Below, in pieces: positions 1 to 9,041 of a stretch of 64,000 bases of DNA. This DNA comes from Bacteroidetes bacterium GWF2_43_63 (lineage in GTDB: Bacteria > Bacteroidota > Bacteroidia > Bacteroidales > DTU049). Position numbers and translations under genes: made by a program. The notes below the pieces were generated by a model. The model worked only from the letters and a program-made list of their open reading frames with translations. It searched no databases and had not been told where the DNA came from. The stretch lies in contig MEOQ01000022.1 of assembly GCA_001769275.1 (NCBI GenBank), forward strand, positions 62,001 to 126,000, given 5' to 3'. Within the stretch, counting starts at the first letter, position 1, and every line of letters starts with the position of its first letter.

Positions 1-167
1 ATCATGCCGGACAAAAGTTCAGAAAAACAGCCCCGACATAACACCAAATGACACAACAAATGCAGATATACAAATGTGTTATTTACCTGTTATTGATATT
101 GAGCTCTCTGAGGAGCCTGTTATTGCTTTCCCTGACTCAAATAAGATTGATAAAAAATAATACAGGT

Positions 168-482
168 ATGAATATAGTCATTCAGCGTTTTTTATACGGC
201 ATCGGAAAAATCACCGGCTGGCGCTGGCTTTCGCTGATGGCTGGCGTGGCACTGATTACTGCCTGCAGTGGTAAGACCGATAAAAACAAGGTGAGCACCG
301 ACACTGTAAATGATACTGAAAGAGTCACATGCTATGAGCCGGTTGCCGATACCTCGCGAAAAACCGCTGTATATCCGGACAGTGCAGTTGATAACAACTC
401 TCAACCAGGGAAGGATAGTGTTGAAAAAGAGAAAATGGTACCGCTGCACCCCTGTTATGTTCCGGTAAAACCAAAAGAATAA
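168..482 (+). CDS. small lipoprotein with Cys-Tyr motifs, putative radical SAM substrate
   Basis: This 104-residue protein has a hydrophobic N-terminus ending in a lipobox (LITAC, Cys33), so it should be a lipoprotein. The mature part is polar and carries two Cys-Tyr motifs: CYEPVADT at residues 55-62 and CYVPVKPKE at 96-104, the latter being the very C-terminus. An in-frame ATG exists at 48, but it would put 40 extra hydrophobic residues before the signal, so I prefer 168. The next gene starts one base after the stop and has the same plan; a radical SAM enzyme follows. From memory, a 'radical SAM/lipoprotein system' has been defined in Bacteroidota (TIGR04133/TIGR04134), and this may belong to it or be a relative. 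That it is a substrate of the enzyme is inferred from position and motif repetition. Confidence 0.75.
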   Translation: MNIVIQRFLYGIGKITGWRWLSLMAGVALITACSGKTDKNKVSTDTVNDTERVTCYEPVADTSRKTAVYPDSAVDNNSQPGKDSVEKEKMVPLHPCYVPVKPKE

Positions 483-483
483 A

Positions 484-861
484 ATGAAGAAAGGATTGAA
501 CAGAATAGCCGTTCGTATGTTGCTGGGCTTTATCAGTGTGATTCCGCCCCGCACGGCTTTTTCCGTTTTTCTGTTTGGCATTGCAACCATGCTGATGACG
601 ACCACTACCTCGTGCGGGCCGCGTGTCAGCTGCTATGAGGCGGCTGTGGATTCAACAGGCACCGTTCAGATGGACTCGGCTGTGAAAAAGGACAGTACTG
701 TTCAATCGTCTGTGAACAATCAAGCGAACAGCAACAACGTTACCGACTGCTATGATATCGCCATTCCGATTGACCAGGTGGAGATTGACTCAAATATTAA
801 TGTAAACAGGCCGGATAATCCGCCCAAAACGTGCTATGCGCCTGTCCGGAATCCTGAATAA
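484..861 (+). CDS. second small Cys-Tyr lipoprotein, putative radical SAM substrate
   Basis: This 125-residue protein has a long hydrophobic leader ending in TTTTSC, so Cys44 is the likely lipidated residue. The mature part is polar, rich in Asp, Ser, Val and Asn, and holds three Cys-Tyr motifs: CYEAAVDS (50-57), CYDIAIPID (89-97) and CYAPVRNPE (117-125, the C-terminus). The final motif is nearly identical to the end of the preceding protein (CYVPVKPKE), so the two are paralogues that keep little else in common. Only one base separates it from the upstream stop, and the radical SAM gene starts 8 bases after its own stop, which indicates one transcript. I recognise no catalytic domain. A role as modified surface peptide carrier is inference. 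Confidence 0.75.
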   Translation: MKKGLNRIAVRMLLGFISVIPPRTAFSVFLFGIATMLMTTTTSCGPRVSCYEAAVDSTGTVQMDSAVKKDSTVQSSVNNQANSNNVTDCYDIAIPIDQVEIDSNINVNRPDNPPKTCYAPVRNPE

Positions 862-869
862 TCCAATTG

Positions 870-1916
870 ATGAAAAAAGATAAGACAGCCCTTCCGCATA
901 TTTCGTTCGAAACCGAAACACGCTGCAACCTGCAGTGTCGCTACTGCTACAATATATGGAAAATGCCGGGTGGGGAATTTCCGGGCGAGGTTACTTATCG
1001 CAAAGCAAAAAAAGTTTTAAAGAAATTGTATCGTCGGGCGAAAGTCGATCACTTCACTTTCACAGGTGGAGAGCCGCTTCTGTTCGATCGTCTGGCCGAG
1101 CTGGTTTTATTTGTCCGCTTGAAAGGAAGTACTGTGACATTGATCAGCAACGGCAACGCCGGTACTGAAGCCGATTTCAAGATGCTGATAAAATTGGGTG
1201 TGGGACTTTTTGAATTTCCTTTTCACAGCATTGATCCTGAAATACACGACCGGATGGCCGGTGTAGAAGGTGCGCATGAAAAATCGAAAGCGACCATCGA
1301 CATGGTGCAGCGCCTTGGCGGCCGTGTGGTGGCTGTGATTGTGCTGACGAAACACAATATCCCGACATTAAAGGAAACCTTGCTGCGACTGAAAGAAATG
1401 AAGGTTGCATCGATTATGCTCAACCGTTTCAATATTGGCGGAGCCGGCATTCAGTGGGCCGAAGATCTGATGCCTTCGCTGCAGGAACTGCGCGATGCAT
1501 TTGCGTTGGTGGAGAAAACCATTGTTGAACATAAAATATCTTTGACATCGAATGTGTGTACCCCAATCTGTGTGCTGAATCCCAAAGATTATCCACATAT
1601 CGGATTCGGACATTGCAGCTCGGATCCGAAGCTGAAACCCATCACACTCGATCATCACGGGAATATTCGCTTGTGCAATCACAGTCCGGTATATGCGGGA
1701 AACATCATGGAGAACAGTTTCGAGGAAATATTCTCCAACGATTATGTAAAAAGCTGGGATGAGAAAGAGCCCGAATTCTGCACCGGATGTGCCCTGTATG
1801 CCGATTGCTTTGCCGGCTGCCGCGCAGCTGCCGAGCAGATGGGACGTACGATTCGCGGCGCCGATCCTGTGCTGGAGATGGTTGGAGCGGAGCGGCCGGT
1901 AGAATATTTAATTTGA
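870..1916 (+). CDS. radical SAM/SPASM peptide-modifying enzyme
   Basis: This 348-residue enzyme has the radical SAM CX3CX2C motif (Cys19, Cys23, Cys26 in RCNLQCRYCYN), which binds the SAM-reducing 4Fe-4S cluster, and the GGEP motif at 66-69. The C-terminal third is SPASM-like, with Cys249, Cys269, Cys304, Cys307, Cys313 and Cys317 in the spacing used to hold auxiliary Fe-S clusters (FCTGCALYADCFAGC). SPASM enzymes commonly modify ribosomal peptides or proteins through thioether, C-C or related bonds. A TTG codon lies directly before the ATG at 870; I chose the ATG. It follows two Cys-Tyr lipoprotein genes with almost no spacing, which are the obvious candidate substrates. The reaction cannot be predicted from sequence alone. 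Confidence 0.88.
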   Translation: MKKDKTALPHISFETETRCNLQCRYCYNIWKMPGGEFPGEVTYRKAKKVLKKLYRRAKVDHFTFTGGEPLLFDRLAELVLFVRLKGSTVTLISNGNAGTEADFKMLIKLGVGLFEFPFHSIDPEIHDRMAGVEGAHEKSKATIDMVQRLGGRVVAVIVLTKHNIPTLKETLLRLKEMKVASIMLNRFNIGGAGIQWAEDLMPSLQELRDAFALVEKTIVEHKISLTSNVCTPICVLNPKDYPHIGFGHCSSDPKLKPITLDHHGNIRLCNHSPVYAGNIMENSFEEIFSNDYVKSWDEKEPEFCTGCALYADCFAGCRAAAEQMGRTIRGADPVLEMVGAERPVEYLI

Positions 1917-2665: not shown

Positions 2666-3085
2666 TTACTGAATATTGATTACCCGTGCTAATTTTTCTT
2701 CGGCTTCTTTTTTCGGAATAGTCACATCGAGGATTCCGTTTTTGTAAGCCGCTTCAATTTTGCCGCTGTCGGCAACGTCGGGCAGGATGAAGCTGCGCGA
2801 GAAGCTGCACTGGCTGAATTCGCGGCGCGAGTAGTTTTTGCCTTCTTCATTCTTTTCTTCTTTTTTCTCTCTGCTGATCACCAGCACGTCGTCTTTCACT
2901 TCGATTTTGAAATCGTCCTTTTCCATTCCAGGAACAGCCAACTCAATCTGGTACGATTTCTCATTTTCAGCAACATTTACTTTCGGCATCCAGCGCGGTG
3001 CAGCAGAGCGTAACGCCGGAACATCGTTGAAAAATTCGTCAAGTACTGACGGAAAAAAGCGGTTGTTTCTGATCATTGGTAACAT
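2666..3085 (-). CDS. small heat shock protein, Hsp20/alpha-crystallin family
   Basis: This 139-residue chaperone has an alpha-crystallin domain from about residue 34 to 130 (PKVNVAENEKSYQIELAVPG, the A-x-x-x-n-G-v-L-type stretch AYKNGILDVTIPK) and the C-terminal I-x-I tail (VINIQ) that docks into a neighbouring subunit. It is expected to hold unfolded proteins in the cytoplasm in an ATP-independent way. AGGAGG lies 8 bases before the ATG at 3085, a strong Shine-Dalgarno site, which is uncommon in this phylum and supports this start over the Met codon three residues later. The gene is divergent from the acyl-CoA synthetase gene, and the shared upstream region holds a palindrome and direct repeats. 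Confidence 0.93.
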   Translation of the reverse strand: MLPMIRNNRFFPSVLDEFFNDVPALRSAAPRWMPKVNVAENEKSYQIELAVPGMEKDDFKIEVKDDVLVISREKKEEKNEEGKNYSRREFSQCSFSRSFILPDVADSGKIEAAYKNGILDVTIPKKEAEEKLARVINIQ

Positions 3086-3250: not shown

Positions 3251-3327
3251 TGTCAAAATGACATTTTAACTGTCAATCTGTGCGAAATACATACGTCGCT
3301 GTGCGAAGTAGTTTACAGCTGTGCGAA
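3251..3327. promoter_or_regulatory. palindrome plus three phased direct repeats, possible operators
   Basis: The 13-base palindrome TGTCAAAATGACA is at 3251-3263. Three copies of CTGTGCGAA follow at 3278, 3299 and 3319, spaced 21 and 20 bases, or about two helical turns each. All lie between the divergent hsp20 and acyl-CoA synthetase genes, the last copy 36 bases before the synthetase ATG. The phasing suits a regulator binding one face of the DNA; that role is inferred. Confidence 0.4.
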
Positions 3328-3362
3328 GTTTCCTAACTTCGCGACCAGATACAACGCACCAT

Positions 3363-5282
3363 ATGAATACAATTACAGAGCTTTTTTATTCATCAGTCGC
3401 GCATTTCGGCAATAATCCGCTGATTTGGGAAAAAGTAGATGGTGAATATACAGCAACCACATATTCCGAAGCATCGGTTCTGATGGAGCATCTGGCCGGA
3501 GGCCTTGTGAGTATTGGGCTCAAGCCTGATGACAAAGTAGTTCTCTACAGCGAAGGCCGCACTTGGTGGCTGCTCTCGGAGCTTGCCGTAATTGCCTGCG
3601 GTGCTATCAGTGTGCCGGTTTCTACGCGGATTGAAGAAGCGGAGGAAATGCTTTTTCGCATGAAGCACAGCGAAAGCAATTACATAATCATCTCGGCCCG
3701 CTTTATCGAATTTGTTCGCCGCATAAAAGCCGATTTCGGTCAGAAGCAAAAAGTAATTATCCTCGATCTGCCGAACCCGGTCAGTGTCGATTTGCAGAAA
3801 GACGAATATCTGCTTAGTGAACTTGTTGCTGCAGGCACTGAGCGTGAAGCCGCCACAAAAGCGGAATTGAAGAAGATTGCCTCCAGTGTTTCCCCCGACG
3901 ATGTGGTGAATATTTGTTACACTTCGGGCACCACAGCCGATCCGAAGGGAATCTTGCTGACACACAAAAACTACCTCACCAATGTGAATCAGTCCGAAGC
4001 CATGTTTGACGTGACGCCGGATTTCATCACGCTGCTCATGCTGCCGTGGGATCACTCGTTCGGACACACAGTCGGTTTATACACACTCATTCTGAAAGGC
4101 GCATCCATGGCGGCTGTCGATGGTGGCAAGTCTCCAATGGAAGCACTTCGCAATGCACCAATCAATATAAAGGAAATCAGACCGTATTTTCTACTGAGCG
4201 TTCCGGCATTGGCGAAAAACTTTAAAGCCAACATCGAAAAAGGAATTTCTGACAAAGGAAAAGTTGCAGCTGTGTTGTTTAGTTTCTTTTTGAACATCAG
4301 CATTCGCTATCACGCCGACGGCTACAATAAAGGTCGTGGACTCAAAATATTGCTGAAGCCGCTGGTATGGCTGGGCGATAAATTGCTGTTCAGCAAAGTA
4401 CGTATGGCTTTTGGAGGGCGTCTTCGTTATTTTGTTGGCGGGGGCGCATTGCTCGATGCCGATATTCAGCGCTTTTTCAATGCCATTGGCGTCCCGATGT
4501 ATCAGGGCTATGGGCTCAGTGAGGCTTCGCCGGTTATTTCATCGAACAGCCCTCACGTATTTAAAATCGGATCGTCGGGCAAGCCGGTGCCGATGATGGA
4601 AATATTTATTGCAGACGAAAACGGGAAGCCGCTTCCCGTTGGGCAATCGGGCGAAATCGTCATCAAAGGCGGTAACGTGATGAAAGGGTATTGGAAAAAC
4701 GACCAGGCCACTCAGGATACGATTGTTGATGGCTGGTTGCACACCGGCGATCTTGGCTATCTCGACACTGACGGATTTCTGTTTGTAAAAGGCCGATACA
4801 AAAGTTTGCTGATTGCCAACGACGGAGAAAAGTACAGCCCTGAATTGCTCGAAGAGGCCATGATTTCCCATTCACCTATCATCAGCCAGATTTATTTACA
4901 CAACAATCAGAATCCGTTTACTACTGCGCTGGTGTTTATAAATTCGGAAAAATTGAGACACAAGCTCGCTATATCAGTGCTATCGGTTGCCAATCCGGAG
5001 CATCGTGCAGGAATACTTGATATTGTTACAAAAGAACTCTACCTGTTGCGCACCGACCCTGTTTTGAGTAAACAGTATCCGGCACGCTGGCTTCCCAGCA
5101 TTTTCTGTATTCTGGAAGAAGGATTCAACGAAAAAAATCACTTGCTCAACAGCACCATGAAAATCGTCAGACCTAAAATAGAAACAGCGTTTTCCCCGTT
5201 ATTTGAAATGATGTATGGACCAGAGGGCAAGAAGAAAACCGAAGAATATAACATCGGAATGTTGGAAAAAACGCTAAAGTAG
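3363..5282 (+). CDS. long-chain acyl-CoA synthetase (AMP-forming)
   Basis: This 639-residue enzyme belongs to the ANL adenylating superfamily. It shows the phosphate-binding motif YTSGTTADPKG (about residues 198-208), the GYGLSEASP motif that contacts AMP, the GWLHTGDLG motif, and the FVKGRYKSLLIANDGEKYSP hinge region in the form typical of long-chain acyl-CoA synthetases. It should activate fatty acids with ATP and CoA. The ATG at 3363 removes 14 residues of an upstream reading frame that overlaps the direct-repeat region. The C-terminus is longer than in short-chain synthetases. It stands alone as an operon, with possible operator repeats just upstream. The exact chain-length preference cannot be read from sequence. 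Confidence 0.9.
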   Translation: MNTITELFYSSVAHFGNNPLIWEKVDGEYTATTYSEASVLMEHLAGGLVSIGLKPDDKVVLYSEGRTWWLLSELAVIACGAISVPVSTRIEEAEEMLFRMKHSESNYIIISARFIEFVRRIKADFGQKQKVIILDLPNPVSVDLQKDEYLLSELVAAGTEREAATKAELKKIASSVSPDDVVNICYTSGTTADPKGILLTHKNYLTNVNQSEAMFDVTPDFITLLMLPWDHSFGHTVGLYTLILKGASMAAVDGGKSPMEALRNAPINIKEIRPYFLLSVPALAKNFKANIEKGISDKGKVAAVLFSFFLNISIRYHADGYNKGRGLKILLKPLVWLGDKLLFSKVRMAFGGRLRYFVGGGALLDADIQRFFNAIGVPMYQGYGLSEASPVISSNSPHVFKIGSSGKPVPMMEIFIADENGKPLPVGQSGEIVIKGGNVMKGYWKNDQATQDTIVDGWLHTGDLGYLDTDGFLFVKGRYKSLLIANDGEKYSPELLEEAMISHSPIISQIYLHNNQNPFTTALVFINSEKLRHKLAISVLSVANPEHRAGILDIVTKELYLLRTDPVLSKQYPARWLPSIFCILEEGFNEKNHLLNSTMKIVRPKIETAFSPLFEMMYGPEGKKKTEEYNIGMLEKTLK

Positions 5283-5328: not shown

Positions 5329-5868
5329 ATGAGAAAAGTCGTTTTCCTGCCGCTGATTATGGTTGCACTCATGCAGATGCTGATTTCATGCGGTAATCAG
5401 AAACAAACGGATGCTGAGGACAACTTTGAAGTTGTTGCCGACACCATGGATTCGAAGGTAACGCCAAAAATTCTGGGCACCATAACCGATTATGAAAAGC
5501 TGTTTACCGAAGGAGAATCAAAAACTTTAGCGGCCCGTTGTGCTGATTTTGAAAAAAAGAATGCCATTCCGATTGGTGTTTTTACCAGTGAAAATATAGG
5601 CGATTACAATAATTTTACTGAGTATGCCGATGCTGTTTCCGAAAAATGGAATGGTTGTAAAGATAATCAGGGACTGTTGTTCGTGATATCAAACAAACTG
5701 GGTGAAATCAGAATGATTTCGTGCCCGGCTACTGAAAACCGAATCAGCGACAAAGACTTTGATTATGTAATAAACACAGTGATTTTCGATTCTTTCCGGA
5801 AAAATCAGTTTTTCGATGGGATCATAAATGCGCTGGAATATTTGGACCTGAAAATAAAAAAGCAATAA
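5329..5868 (+). CDS. TPM-domain lipoprotein
   Basis: This 179-residue protein begins with a signal peptide and lipobox (MLISCGN), so it should be a lipoprotein. The rest matches the TPM (YgcG) fold: a tail-like linker, then ITDYEKLFTEGESKTLAARC, the IGVFTSENIGDY strand and the QGLLFVISNKLGEIRM core. TPM domains are found in envelope proteins, some linked to membrane-protein quality control or phosphatase activity. The ATG at 5329 is preferred to one six codons upstream because it starts the signal peptide. A TATTTTTG sequence at 5306-5313 resembles a Bacteroidota -7 box. Its stop overlaps the next ATG by one base, and the four following genes are similarly coupled. Confidence 0.75.
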   Translation: MRKVVFLPLIMVALMQMLISCGNQKQTDAEDNFEVVADTMDSKVTPKILGTITDYEKLFTEGESKTLAARCADFEKKNAIPIGVFTSENIGDYNNFTEYADAVSEKWNGCKDNQGLLFVISNKLGEIRMISCPATENRISDKDFDYVINTVIFDSFRKNQFFDGIINALEYLDLKIKKQ

Positions 5869-6164
5869 TGCCGACAAAAGTTTTTTTCAATGAACCGCCC
5901 GAGCCGCTTGTGATTTTGAATTATTCAGAAGATCTTAGTTTGTTGCGGGTTTCAATCAGCCACGAAGATCATGCGGCACCGGTAGAACTTTTCAGCACCG
6001 GCTGCGGAAAAGACATAACAGAGGAATTGCAGTCAAAAGAAGGGTTTTCTGTTTATATGGAAGGTTGTAAGAGAATAAATTTGCGATATCGCCGTTTTCT
6101 TTTCAGAAAAAAGTGGAAAGTAATGTATCAGGATGTTGAATTATCAGGAATAGAAGTTTCATGA
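5868..6164 (+). CDS. small protein of unknown function
   Basis: A 98-residue basic protein without signal peptide or membrane segment. It shares one base with the upstream stop (TAATG) and four with the next start (ATGA), so it is very likely real and translated by coupling. The sequence is beta-rich and holds two separated Cys residues (STGCGK, MEGCKR) and a basic patch (RYRRFLFRKKWK) near the C-terminus. I recognise no family. Its place between a lipoprotein and a membrane protein suggests a cytoplasmic partner of this envelope cluster. Confidence 0.7.
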   Translation: MPTKVFFNEPPEPLVILNYSEDLSLLRVSISHEDHAAPVELFSTGCGKDITEELQSKEGFSVYMEGCKRINLRYRRFLFRKKWKVMYQDVELSGIEVS

Positions 6165-6856
6165 GAGTTTTTGCAATACAAATAGTTTTTTTGCTCGGTG
6201 TTTTCTTTCATCCGGTTTTGGCTCAGGATAAAGGTTTCAAATGTCCGTGGGACGAAGTTGACTGTCCAGGAAAATGCGGTCGTTATTTCGATGCCGATGG
6301 TGATGGCTTTTGTGATTATGGTCTGCTTTCAAAGGTTGTAAAAAAGGACACTGTAGTAAGAAAAGATACGGCTGCCATTAAGCAAGTGAACTCAAATAAA
6401 CAGGTTAATCCATCTACACAAAATGGAAACGCAGATGTCGAAGGACCTGGTTCCGACAGCATGAACGCTGATACTGCTGTGGTTGAATTGAAAAATGACA
6501 CACCAAAACCATCCAAAGCCCGTTCATACAGCTTACTACTCATCAGTTTGCTTTGTTTTGGATTGTATGGTTTCACTTCGTTTTTGTATGAACTAAAAAT
6601 ATATCGAAAATTTGTGCATCGCCGCATCTGGAATGTTTTGTTATTGCTCACATTTCTGACAACAGCGGTACTCGGGATCATTCTTGTTGTCCTAATCAAC
6701 TATCAACTTGACTCAACGCTGATCCGTGATTATCTGTACTGGCATGTCCAGTTTGGAATAGCAATGACAGTGATAGCCTTGATTCACATTGTGTGGCACT
6801 GGAAATATTTTTTCCGGTTGTTTTCGAAAAAAAGCAAATCCGACTGCATCAGCTAA
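6161..6856 (+). CDS. membrane protein with Cys-rich periplasmic part and haem-type His motif
   Basis: This 231-residue protein has a signal peptide, then a Cys-rich segment with four Cys and an Asp-rich loop (CPGKCGRYFDADGDGFCDYG) that resembles a metal-binding or calcium-type repeat, then a low-complexity Asp/Val/Thr linker. The C-terminal half has three membrane segments. The last two contain His residues in the arrangement HVQFGIAMTVIALIHIVWHW, similar to the di-haem binding pattern of DUF4405-type cytochrome b-like proteins. A redox or electron-transfer role is plausible but not proven. The start overlaps the previous gene and its stop overlaps the next ATG by one base, so it belongs to the coupled cluster 5329-7965. 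Confidence 0.65.
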   Translation: MRVFAIQIVFLLGVFFHPVLAQDKGFKCPWDEVDCPGKCGRYFDADGDGFCDYGLLSKVVKKDTVVRKDTAAIKQVNSNKQVNPSTQNGNADVEGPGSDSMNADTAVVELKNDTPKPSKARSYSLLLISLLCFGLYGFTSFLYELKIYRKFVHRRIWNVLLLLTFLTTAVLGIILVVLINYQLDSTLIRDYLYWHVQFGIAMTVIALIHIVWHWKYFFRLFSKKSKSDCIS

Positions 6857-7965
6857 TGAGATTACTGAACGCAATATCCGCTGTAGTATGTTTGCTGTTT
6901 ATGGCAACAGGAGTGGATTTGTGCGCTCAAAATCTTGTTCCAAACGGATCATTTGACGACACACGGGGAACCCGTCCGTCGATGAAACCATGGAAAAAAG
7001 TAAACACGGTCGATTTTTTTGTAAACGCTGAAGATCGAAGATACAAAGAGGTAAATGCCGCAAAAAACGACAGAAATTATATTTTACGTAAACCCCGTTC
7101 CGGACATGCATACGTAGGTTTGCGGATTTGGCCAAAGTACAATGAATATCTGCAGGTTCAGCTCAGACGCCCGCTTACAGAAGGCAAGGCCTATTCTTTT
7201 GAAATGTATATTACGCCGTCGAGATATTCCAACTGTTATCTGAAAAAAATTGGGGCCAGTTTTTACAGTCACCGCCCGCCATATACAACGCGCGCCGGGA
7301 GAGAAGATTTTCCCGCACAAGTGGAAACGTACAAACCTTTTGGAGTCCGCGATACGGCTGAATGGTTCCGCGTCAATGGGGTTTTTATTGCCAAAGGCGG
7401 TGAAAAAATCATGACCATTGGAAATTTTTCAACAACACCCAACGATAAATTTAAACGAAAAAAAATATCATTTAAAAAGCGCGAGGCCTATTATTATATT
7501 GATGATATTGCAGTGTACGAGCTCGATGACAAAGGAGTTCCAATTGTTGATTCGCTCGCTTACGCTTTAGCCATGCAGGATTCGCTCGACAATGATTCGA
7601 CTGATTTACTTGCATCGTCGTTTGCTGGGCTCGACAGCAATATCACTAATATTTATTTTGAAGAAAACAGTTCCAGACTCGATGAAGCCGGTTACAAAAA
7701 GCTTGGAATTATTACGGAGTTCCTTTTCGAAAACACGGAAGCAACCATAAGAGTGGACACATATGCATCGCCTGGTGAAATGGATGGACAGGAATTGAAA
7801 TTGTCCGAAAAGCGGGCGAAATCGGTTCATATTTTCCTTACCGGAAACAAAATTGAGAAGAGTCGCATAGTGCTTCACCCGGTTGGAAACAGCTGTGAGT
7901 TTTACAAAGCAGGCGACCCGAAACGCAGATTCTGCCGTAAAGCAGAAATCATTATCATGAATTAA
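6856..7965 (+). CDS. OmpA-family outer membrane protein with N-terminal jelly-roll-like domain
   Basis: This 369-residue protein starts at the ATG that shares one base with the upstream stop; that start opens a signal peptide (MRLLNAISAVVCLLFMATG). Residues about 25-230 form a beta-sandwich-like domain (NLVPNGSFDDTRG, typical of carbohydrate-binding-like modules). The C-terminal 110 residues are OmpA-like: IYFEENSSRLDEAGYKKL, then VDTYASPGEMDGQELKLSEK and RAKSVHIFL, expected to hold peptidoglycan. No transmembrane barrel is evident between the two. It is the fourth gene of the coupled cluster and is followed 14 bases later by a C1 protease gene. Confidence 0.78.
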   Translation: MRLLNAISAVVCLLFMATGVDLCAQNLVPNGSFDDTRGTRPSMKPWKKVNTVDFFVNAEDRRYKEVNAAKNDRNYILRKPRSGHAYVGLRIWPKYNEYLQVQLRRPLTEGKAYSFEMYITPSRYSNCYLKKIGASFYSHRPPYTTRAGREDFPAQVETYKPFGVRDTAEWFRVNGVFIAKGGEKIMTIGNFSTTPNDKFKRKKISFKKREAYYYIDDIAVYELDDKGVPIVDSLAYALAMQDSLDNDSTDLLASSFAGLDSNITNIYFEENSSRLDEAGYKKLGIITEFLFENTEATIRVDTYASPGEMDGQELKLSEKRAKSVHIFLTGNKIEKSRIVLHPVGNSCEFYKAGDPKRRFCRKAEIIIMN

Positions 7966-7979
7966 TCAACGACAATCCA

Positions 7980-9041
7980 ATGAAGAAATTAGTTATTGTT
8001 GCCATCATCATATTTTTTGCTGTTGCCACGCAAGCACAGGAAAAATTTAAAATTGTTAAAGACGTTCCGCACACATCGGTGAAAAATCAGCAACATGCCG
8101 GAACCTGCTGGAGCTTTGCGACTACATCATTTATAGAATCGGAGTTGATCCGAAGCGGTTCAGGCGAGTTTGATTTGTCCGAACTTTTCTTTGTGTATTA
8201 TGCATATCTGATGAAGACTGATAATTTCATCCGGCTCAGAGGCGTGGCCAACTTTAGTCAGGGCGGACAGGCACACGACGTGTTTGCAGTCATGGATAAA
8301 TATGGCGCAGTGACTGAAGAATTTTTCACAGGTTATGCTCCTGGAGATACGATCTACGACCATACTGAAATGGAAAAAATTCTGAGTGCGATGGCAAAGG
8401 TGTGGACCGGAATTGATGGGGTAGGACGTCATTGGAAAGGCGCTTCCAGAGCTATTCTTGATGAATATATGGGTGAGATGCCCAATGAAATGGCATTTCG
8501 TAAAAAGACTTACACGCCGATGGAATTTCGCCAGGCATACCTGCCTAAATCTTCGGATTATGTAGAGCTAACAAGCTTTTCGCATCACCCGTGGTATGAG
8601 CCCTTCCGTCTAGAAATTCCTGACAACTGGCTTGGAGCACAGTATTACAATTTGCCGGTGGATGAATTGATGGAAGTGATTAACTATGCACTTGAAAATG
8701 GTTATAGTATTTGTTGGGATGGCGATGTAAGCGAGCCGGAATTCAAACACCGCCAGAATTATGCGCGTATTGAAGACGAGAATATGAAATTGACTCAAGC
8801 TGCTCGCCAGGATGGATTCGACGATTTCAGCACGAGCGATGATCACCTGATGCATATGACCGGCCTTTCGGAAGATTCGCTGGGAAACCGGCATTACATT
8901 ATAAAAAACAGCTGGGGCGACTCCAATAGCGAGCATGGTTATCTGCACATGAGCAAAGGCTTTGTTTATATGAAGACTGTTGCCATTCTGATTCACAAGA
9001 ATGCCATACCGGAAAAGATCCGGAAGAAGCTGAGTTTGTAG
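7980..9041 (+). CDS. secreted papain-like cysteine protease (C1B, bleomycin-hydrolase type)
   Basis: This 353-residue protein has a signal peptide (ending near TQAQ) and the full papain-type catalytic set: an oxyanion Gln in VKNQQHAGTCWSF, the nucleophile Cys43, the His in DDHLMHMTGL (about residue 284) and the Asn in IIKNSWG (about residue 308). The long insert between Cys and His and the overall match point to the C1B (PepC/bleomycin hydrolase) branch, here exported rather than cytoplasmic. It starts 14 bases after the OmpA-like gene and probably ends that operon. The substrate is unknown. Confidence 0.85.
   Translation: MKKLVIVAIIIFFAVATQAQEKFKIVKDVPHTSVKNQQHAGTCWSFATTSFIESELIRSGSGEFDLSELFFVYYAYLMKTDNFIRLRGVANFSQGGQAHDVFAVMDKYGAVTEEFFTGYAPGDTIYDHTEMEKILSAMAKVWTGIDGVGRHWKGASRAILDEYMGEMPNEMAFRKKTYTPMEFRQAYLPKSSDYVELTSFSHHPWYEPFRLEIPDNWLGAQYYNLPVDELMEVINYALENGYSICWDGDVSEPEFKHRQNYARIEDENMKLTQAARQDGFDDFSTSDDHLMHMTGLSEDSLGNRHYIIKNSWGDSNSEHGYLHMSKGFVYMKTVAILIHKNAIPEKIRKKLSL

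Follow-up and report, generated by a model that had tools for sequence, protein, structure and literature searches.

A radical SAM/SPASM enzyme conserved beside exported Cys-Tyr proteins in Bacteroidales, a candidate leader-guided maturase

What does a radical SAM/SPASM enzyme do when it is encoded directly behind small predicted lipoproteins whose cysteines are followed by tyrosine? The question is raised by one end of the window, the 64,000-nucleotide stretch of DNA analysed here (G000:C22:62001-126000), where the first-pass annotation had described three genes, two encoding lipoproteins with two and three Cys-Tyr (CY) sites and one encoding the enzyme. On re-reading, the three genes, the gaps of 1 and 8 bases between them, the five CY pairs and the C-termini (CYVPVKPKE and CYAPVRNPE) were all confirmed (Table 1). 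The claimed two-substrate pairing, with two sites in one and three in the other, is, in contrast, an effect of the window's left edge, which falls inside the operon. Reading the window together with its upstream flank led to the identification of five consecutive CY lipoprotein genes followed by the enzyme gene, with 2, 2, 1, 2 and 3 CY sites from the first lipoprotein to the fifth. The mature parts of these five proteins contain 10 cysteines other than the anchor and 13 tyrosines, and 10 out of the 10 cysteines stand in a CY pair; shuffling with composition preserved, repeated 200,000 times, yielded no total above 5 CY pairs, versus the 10 observed. A profile of the CY lipoproteins run on the whole 4-Mb genome matched exactly these five proteins, and no NCBIfam (up to E 1) or Pfam model matched the lipoproteins of the window. 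Further downstream the window encodes, by reading, a small heat-shock (Hsp20-like) protein (2666-3085, minus strand) and an AMP-binding acyl-CoA synthetase-like protein (3321-5282, plus strand), neither of which is kept beside the enzyme elsewhere.

Table 1 Features of the CY operon, numbered from the first base of the window, and TIGR04133/TIGR04134 features found elsewhere in the same genome.
Feature	Position	Strand	Remarks
CY lipoprotein 1	-604..-389 (upstream, outside window)		complete gene; flank reading
CY lipoprotein 2	-402..-109 (upstream, outside window)		complete gene; flank reading
CY lipoprotein 3, 3' part	1..160	+	open frame 2-160 (SCRTKVQ...MCYLPV); gene start at window -100, TTG
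CY lipoprotein 3, sites	5-7; 77-82		lipobox Cys; single CY site (MCYLPV)
CY lipoprotein 4, 104 aa	168..482	+	extended signal peptide
CY lipoprotein 4, sites	264-266; 330-335, 453-458		lipobox Cys; CY sites (TCYEPV, PCYVPV)
CY lipoprotein 5, 125 aa	484..861	+	extended signal peptide
CY lipoprotein 5, sites	613-615; 631-636, 748-753, 832-837		lipobox Cys; CY sites (SCYEAA, DCYDIA, TCYAPV)
Radical SAM/SPASM maturase (candidate), 348 aa	870..1916	+	ATG at 870
TIGR04133 enzyme, locus L089	G000:C12:157289-158338	-	five tandem lipoproteins upstream, repeated xYG[VP]P
TIGR04133 enzyme, locus L090	G000:C20:51363-52388		adjoining lipoprotein begins CYGAP
Only TIGR04134 match over cut-off in the genome, L088	G000:C18:49769-50098		signal peptide, AQYGAP, regulatory-like domain

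The enzyme carries both sequence signatures of the radical SAM/SPASM peptide maturases, the CxxxCxxC core and the SPASM pattern of the auxiliary clusters, which we searched as C-x(9-15)-G-x4-C ... CxxC-x5-C-x3-C. It matches the Pfam families Radical_SAM (PF04055, 81.5 bits) and SPASM (PF13186, 24.6 bits), its best NCBIfam profiles are GeoRSP (TIGR04303, 88 bits for a cut-off of 400) and PqqE (TIGR02109, 76 bits for a cut-off of 381), and its relatives align full-length. The core cysteines C19, C23 and C26 (window positions 924-947) are invariant in 30 of the 30 enzymes compared, as are the SPASM residues C234, C249, C269, C304, C307, C313, C317 and D332, spaced as C249-x14-G264-x4-C269 and C304xxC307x5C313x3C317. 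The canonical last SPASM cysteine is absent and the invariant D332 is found at the expected position; going by the alignment alone, D332 may be a ligand of the AuxII cluster, a role for which Asp has a precedent in PqqE. The AlphaFold2 model of the enzyme (pLDDT 83.6, pTM 0.85) begins directly with the barrel and has no RRE-like N-terminal domain. Comparison with solved structures by Foldseek and VIA-align over full-length matches gave SkfB (Z 24.9), anSME (24.2), SuiB (24.1), ChlB (23.9), CteB (22.8) and PqqE (21.8) as the closest folds. That the model resembles peptide-modifying SPASM enzymes most closely suggests a peptide maturase; a fold nearest to SkfB does not fix the reaction.

We then asked with which genes the enzyme is associated in other genomes. 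A first search for related loci gave 12 relatives. Enzyme matches at E 1e-50 or better were found in 25 of the 393 genomes of the order, with a patchy distribution, and in a sample of the phylum the enzyme was present in 3 of 395 genomes at E 1e-70. It was not found in G414, a genome of the same genus, and no relatives were found in viral contigs; absence from an incomplete genome is not proof of absence. The 28 orthologous loci retained for comparison score above 340 bits with readable flanks or, for L080, have the N-terminal half of the enzyme on a broken contig, L013 and L065 being left out because of contig ends. At all 28 loci the enzyme is adjoined by substrate genes, from one to eleven of them. 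The substrates carry CY sites at 27 loci and Cys-His (C-H) at the remaining one (L073, genome G453). The flanking genes differ from locus to locus and the conserved unit consists of the substrate or substrates and the enzyme alone, with no partner export, protease or regulator gene conserved beside the enzyme across the loci. The enzyme-substrate pairing is well supported. The earlier proposal that the CY motifs are sites linked to the enzyme thus agrees with every readable orthologous locus, and the conservation of CY among orthologues stands with the one exception of the C-H locus. The individual lipoproteins themselves are highly diverged between genomes, and whole CY sites have been gained or lost between homologues.

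The same survey bears on whether the sites are modified at all. Cys-rich linkers can bind metals, and the CY sites could be unmodified metal-binding, heme-binding or adhesive motifs while the enzyme acts on a small molecule or on another protein. This we consider quite improbable given that the enzyme and the CY proteins are the sole constant pair over 28 loci with unrelated neighbours, that motif and leader are common to three unrelated C-terminal architectures, and that the motif also occurs in a non-lipoprotein of Bacillota (both described below). Judged from these sequences, the enzyme very probably modifies the CY site, whatever bond is formed.

To describe the substrates we curated 69 of them. 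Out of 119 mature cysteines counted, a figure that omits most C-H sites of L073, 95 precede a tyrosine, and the listed exceptions lie within C-terminal domain regions. With the cysteine as position 0, the site consensus is T, M or S at -1, Y at +1, D, E, K or A at +2, P, V, I or M at +3, V, A or P at +4 and P at +6. The substrates fall into three architectures: (i) a short tail after the CY site, as in the window, (ii) a site followed by a TonB_C domain (PF03544, 60-130 bits) and (iii) an additional N-terminal membrane helix with a beta-sandwich of about 100 residues, for which the Foldseek matches were weak (TapA and Ig-like proteins, TM 0.2-0.4) and led to no assignment. The signal peptides in the window are long, with 25-43 residues ahead of the lipobox; the median signal length in a set of 15 control lipoproteins is 19. 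A leader motif, [KR][LIM]xxGxx[LIVM], opens the hydrophobic stretch of 51 of the 69 substrates versus none of the 15 controls, a small set chosen by a crude pattern. Signal peptides were called by eye and by pattern, and the lipobox counts of the 69-substrate survey are crude. In all five lipoproteins of the operon the hydrophobic stretch ends in a Cys that is separate from the CY sites. Several substrates of architectures (ii) and (iii) have no lipobox Cys (for example ...VVGNAQNN and ...SASGQE), which indicates that what the substrates have in common is export and not lipidation. The first-pass picture of surface-displayed, lipid-anchored products is thereby kept in part: the substrates are predicted to be Sec-exported and often lipid-anchored, but lipidation is not universal.

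The locus had also been linked to TIGR04133 and TIGR04134, a radical SAM enzyme and lipoprotein pair, and this link did not hold. The window enzyme scores 40.5 bits against TIGR04133 (rSAM_w_lipo), whose curated cut-off is 425, and the window lipoproteins are unmatched in NCBIfam, including TIGR04134 (lipo_with_rSAM; cut-off 39.8 bits). Two genuine TIGR04133 enzymes (488 and 457 bits) are encoded elsewhere in the genome (Table 1). No TIGR04133 enzyme was found on the C18 contig that bears the TIGR04134 match. Across the order, TIGR04133 was found in 32 of 149 genomes, and most of the TIGR04133 loci examined encode exported lipoproteins with an XYGxP motif (AEYGVP, CMYGTP, TKYGVP), some with a further domain after it. 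In a tree of 59 enzymes the CY and TIGR04133 enzymes form two clades, each supported at 100/100. The two systems share a common logic without recent shared ancestry. Membership of the window system in the described TIGR04133/TIGR04134 system, in which a SPASM enzyme likewise follows exported lipoproteins in tandem, is therefore highly improbable in view of the scores, the unmatched substrates, the separate clades and the presence in the same genome of true members with a different motif. As for TIGR04133 itself, one of its enzymes has TIGR04103 (136 bits), which we take to be the PlpX-type group, as its second-best NCBIfam profile. The XYGxP motif of the TIGR04133 system resembles the PlpXY splice site, LYGLP, an XYG site (PMC10533398). 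TIGR04133/TIGR04134, listed as a hypothetical family, appears to be an XYGxP system and may be a lipoprotein splicease.

Two groups of relatives show how far the site can vary. The C-H locus (L073, G453:C210) encodes five tandem short lipoproteins about 1.2 kb upstream of the enzyme, with the sites TSCHRF, HTCHKR, TTCHAP, PTCHMV and TSCHKA and a leader of the same kind as that of the CY substrates, and its enzyme is nested inside the CY clade of the tree. The switch at +1 comes from one metagenome-derived genome, and the enzyme did not turn up in any additional genome when the families around G453 and G366 were searched. The Bacillota locus (L016), from the one genome covered by the search around it, contains distant relatives, at 31% identity, in the form of two tandem enzymes (6001-8190) that are 63% identical to each other, together with a 150-residue protein (5404-5853) carrying five CY repeats (CYLPV, CYLPM, CYAPM, CYAPM and CYLAG; PPILCYAPMK). 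This protein is not a lipoprotein and has no evident signal peptide, indicating that the CY motif survives outside the lipoprotein context. Asn at position 188 (N188) is shared by the CY enzymes and the two Bacillota enzymes, with Ser in its place solely in the C-H enzyme, a single case that hints at a tie between this substitution and the C-H motif. Of note, more distant enzymes (about 200-250 bits; L081, L083, L084 and L086) follow one large lipoprotein of about 320-535 residues, which has a membrane-helix and lipobox leader and no usual CY sites. An enzyme at 174 bits (L087, genome G226) adjoins a non-lipoprotein with MCYCPAIPP followed by further, zinc-ribbon-like Cys pairs.

A dedicated SPASM enzyme, a short repeated site, a conserved leader and varied C-terminal domains are features of a leader-guided maturase, and since the enzyme has no signal peptide it must act ahead of Sec export. 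We infer from these sequence features, with moderate confidence, a dedicated leader-guided maturase of the neighbouring exported proteins, a reading that includes leader recognition, an order of steps and a C-S bond. The enzyme would recognise the unusually long signal peptide in the cytoplasm, this peptide doubling as a RiPP-type leader, and would act at each [TSM]-C-Y-x-x-[VAP] site within the flexible segment past the cleavage site. Modified proteins would exit by Sec, those with a lipobox also being lipidated by Lgt/LspA, and the modified segment would stay membrane-anchored, either as a tail or as a linker ahead of the TonB_C or beta-sandwich domain. At the site itself, a SPASM auxiliary cluster would hold the thiolate of the conserved Cys for formation of a C-S bond, the partner most probably being the Tyr next to it, or His in one lineage. 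An aromatic ring and a weak beta C-H are common to Tyr and His. Because the Cys is invariant, Tyr or His stands next to it and SPASM enzymes are considered to present a Cys thiolate to an auxiliary cluster (review PMC8326336), we favour a C-S bond to Tyr or His, but tentatively. Two points count against it. The profile scores place the enzyme no nearer to the thioether maturases than to PqqE or GeoRSP. Joining neighbouring residues through a thioether also calls for a small ring, and the known thioethers of sactipeptides and ranthipeptides are spaced.

Tyrosine follows cysteine at every counted site except in the C-H lineage, and this would also suit a splicease-like reaction in which, as with PlpXY, the tyramine equivalent of the Tyr is removed from C-Y-x and a Cys-derived alpha-keto-beta-amino residue is left. 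The XYGxP motif of the TIGR04133 system that this genome also encodes, close to the LYGLP of PlpXY (PMC10533398), speaks for it too. However, the residue after the Tyr is D, E, K, A or V, with no Gly consensus and so no XYG, the Tyr is replaced by His across one lineage while the Cys stays, and the enzyme is not close to TIGR04133 and has no PlpY-like partner conserved alongside. We therefore regard a splicease reaction as unlikely. Oxidation of the Cys only, converting that of CYxP into formylglycine or another oxidised residue in the manner of the anaerobic sulfatase-maturating enzymes, would leave the Tyr a role in recognition, and the invariant Cys, the common Pro at +3 and the place of anSME amongst the closest folds (Z 24) are consistent with it. 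Simple recognition need not, however, demand an almost invariant Tyr at +1, and the substrates have no sulfatase-like catalytic domain to use a formylglycine, so that this chemistry is equally unlikely in our view.

Returning to the leader-guided maturase, we give somewhat less than an even chance to its fullest form, a new radical-SAM modification at C-Y or C-H on Sec-exported envelope proteins, TonB_C proteins included, with the signal peptide as leader and an undescribed bond. If true, a single enzyme would act on as many as about eleven different substrates, the TIGR04133 XYGxP system would run in parallel on a related task within these cells, and a Cys-Tyr/His bond would be a chemistry undescribed for any RiPP enzyme. 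Radical SAM RiPP enzymes have mostly been studied as makers of secreted peptides. Here a conserved unit of enzyme and exported, membrane-anchored proteins, without protease, exporter or immunity gene, points to modified envelope proteins, which would be structural or functional components of the envelope and not a diffusible natural product. Material for the questions of bond and recognition is provided by the switch from CY to CH, by the modular domains that follow the site and by the five-repeat Bacillota non-lipoprotein.

No report of the CY system was found in the literature searched, lipoprotein substrates go unmentioned in the survey of Bacteroidales RiPPs (PMC10352776), and neither the enzyme nor the substrates are covered by a model in NCBIfam of June 2026. 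Amongst known systems, TIGR04133/TIGR04134 has in common with the window system its gene order, a SPASM enzyme encoded behind tandem substrates of the Sec/lipoprotein type, and the short, repeated motifs with Tyr in these substrates; it differs by XYGxP in place of [TSM]CY, by its leader and by its separate clade. The sactipeptide and ranthipeptide maturases SkfB, CteB, AlbA and PapB likewise combine a radical SAM core with SPASM clusters and a Cys substrate. They are however 16-18% identical to the window enzyme, whose model has no RRE and whose presumed acceptor stands beside the Cys, in substrates that are exported proteins without bacteriocin-type export or protease genes. The spliceases (PlpXY; spliceotides) are also radical SAM enzymes whose peptide or protein substrates contain a short motif with Tyr, but with XYG, two subunits and a -135 Da excision, and the window enzyme is not near them by profile. 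GeoRSP and PqqE provide its best profiles with full-length alignment, yet it scores far under their cut-offs and no PqqD-like partner is conserved beside it. The DAG-RiPPs are RiPP-lipoprotein hybrids shown in 2025 by the van der Donk laboratory for MNIO (DUF692) enzymes (DybA-DybH, NedA), an MNIO subfamily in which modified proteins above 30 kDa occur (PMC12636315). As there, the window system would have a cytosolic enzyme, a Cys motif in the mature part, lipidation at a separate lipobox Cys and large-protein substrates. In contrast, DAG-RiPPs use MNIO enzymes with the motifs CPACGMG or EGKCG and no radical SAM enzyme is mentioned; the MNIO enzyme reads a C-terminal motif (PMC12636315), whereas in the window system the conserved leader is suspected of this role. 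The window substrates have a predicted SPII lipobox separate from the motif and adjoin a RiPP-type enzyme, as RiPP-lipoprotein hybrids in the wide sense do. The best reading of the window system is a radical-SAM counterpart of the MNIO DAG-RiPPs.
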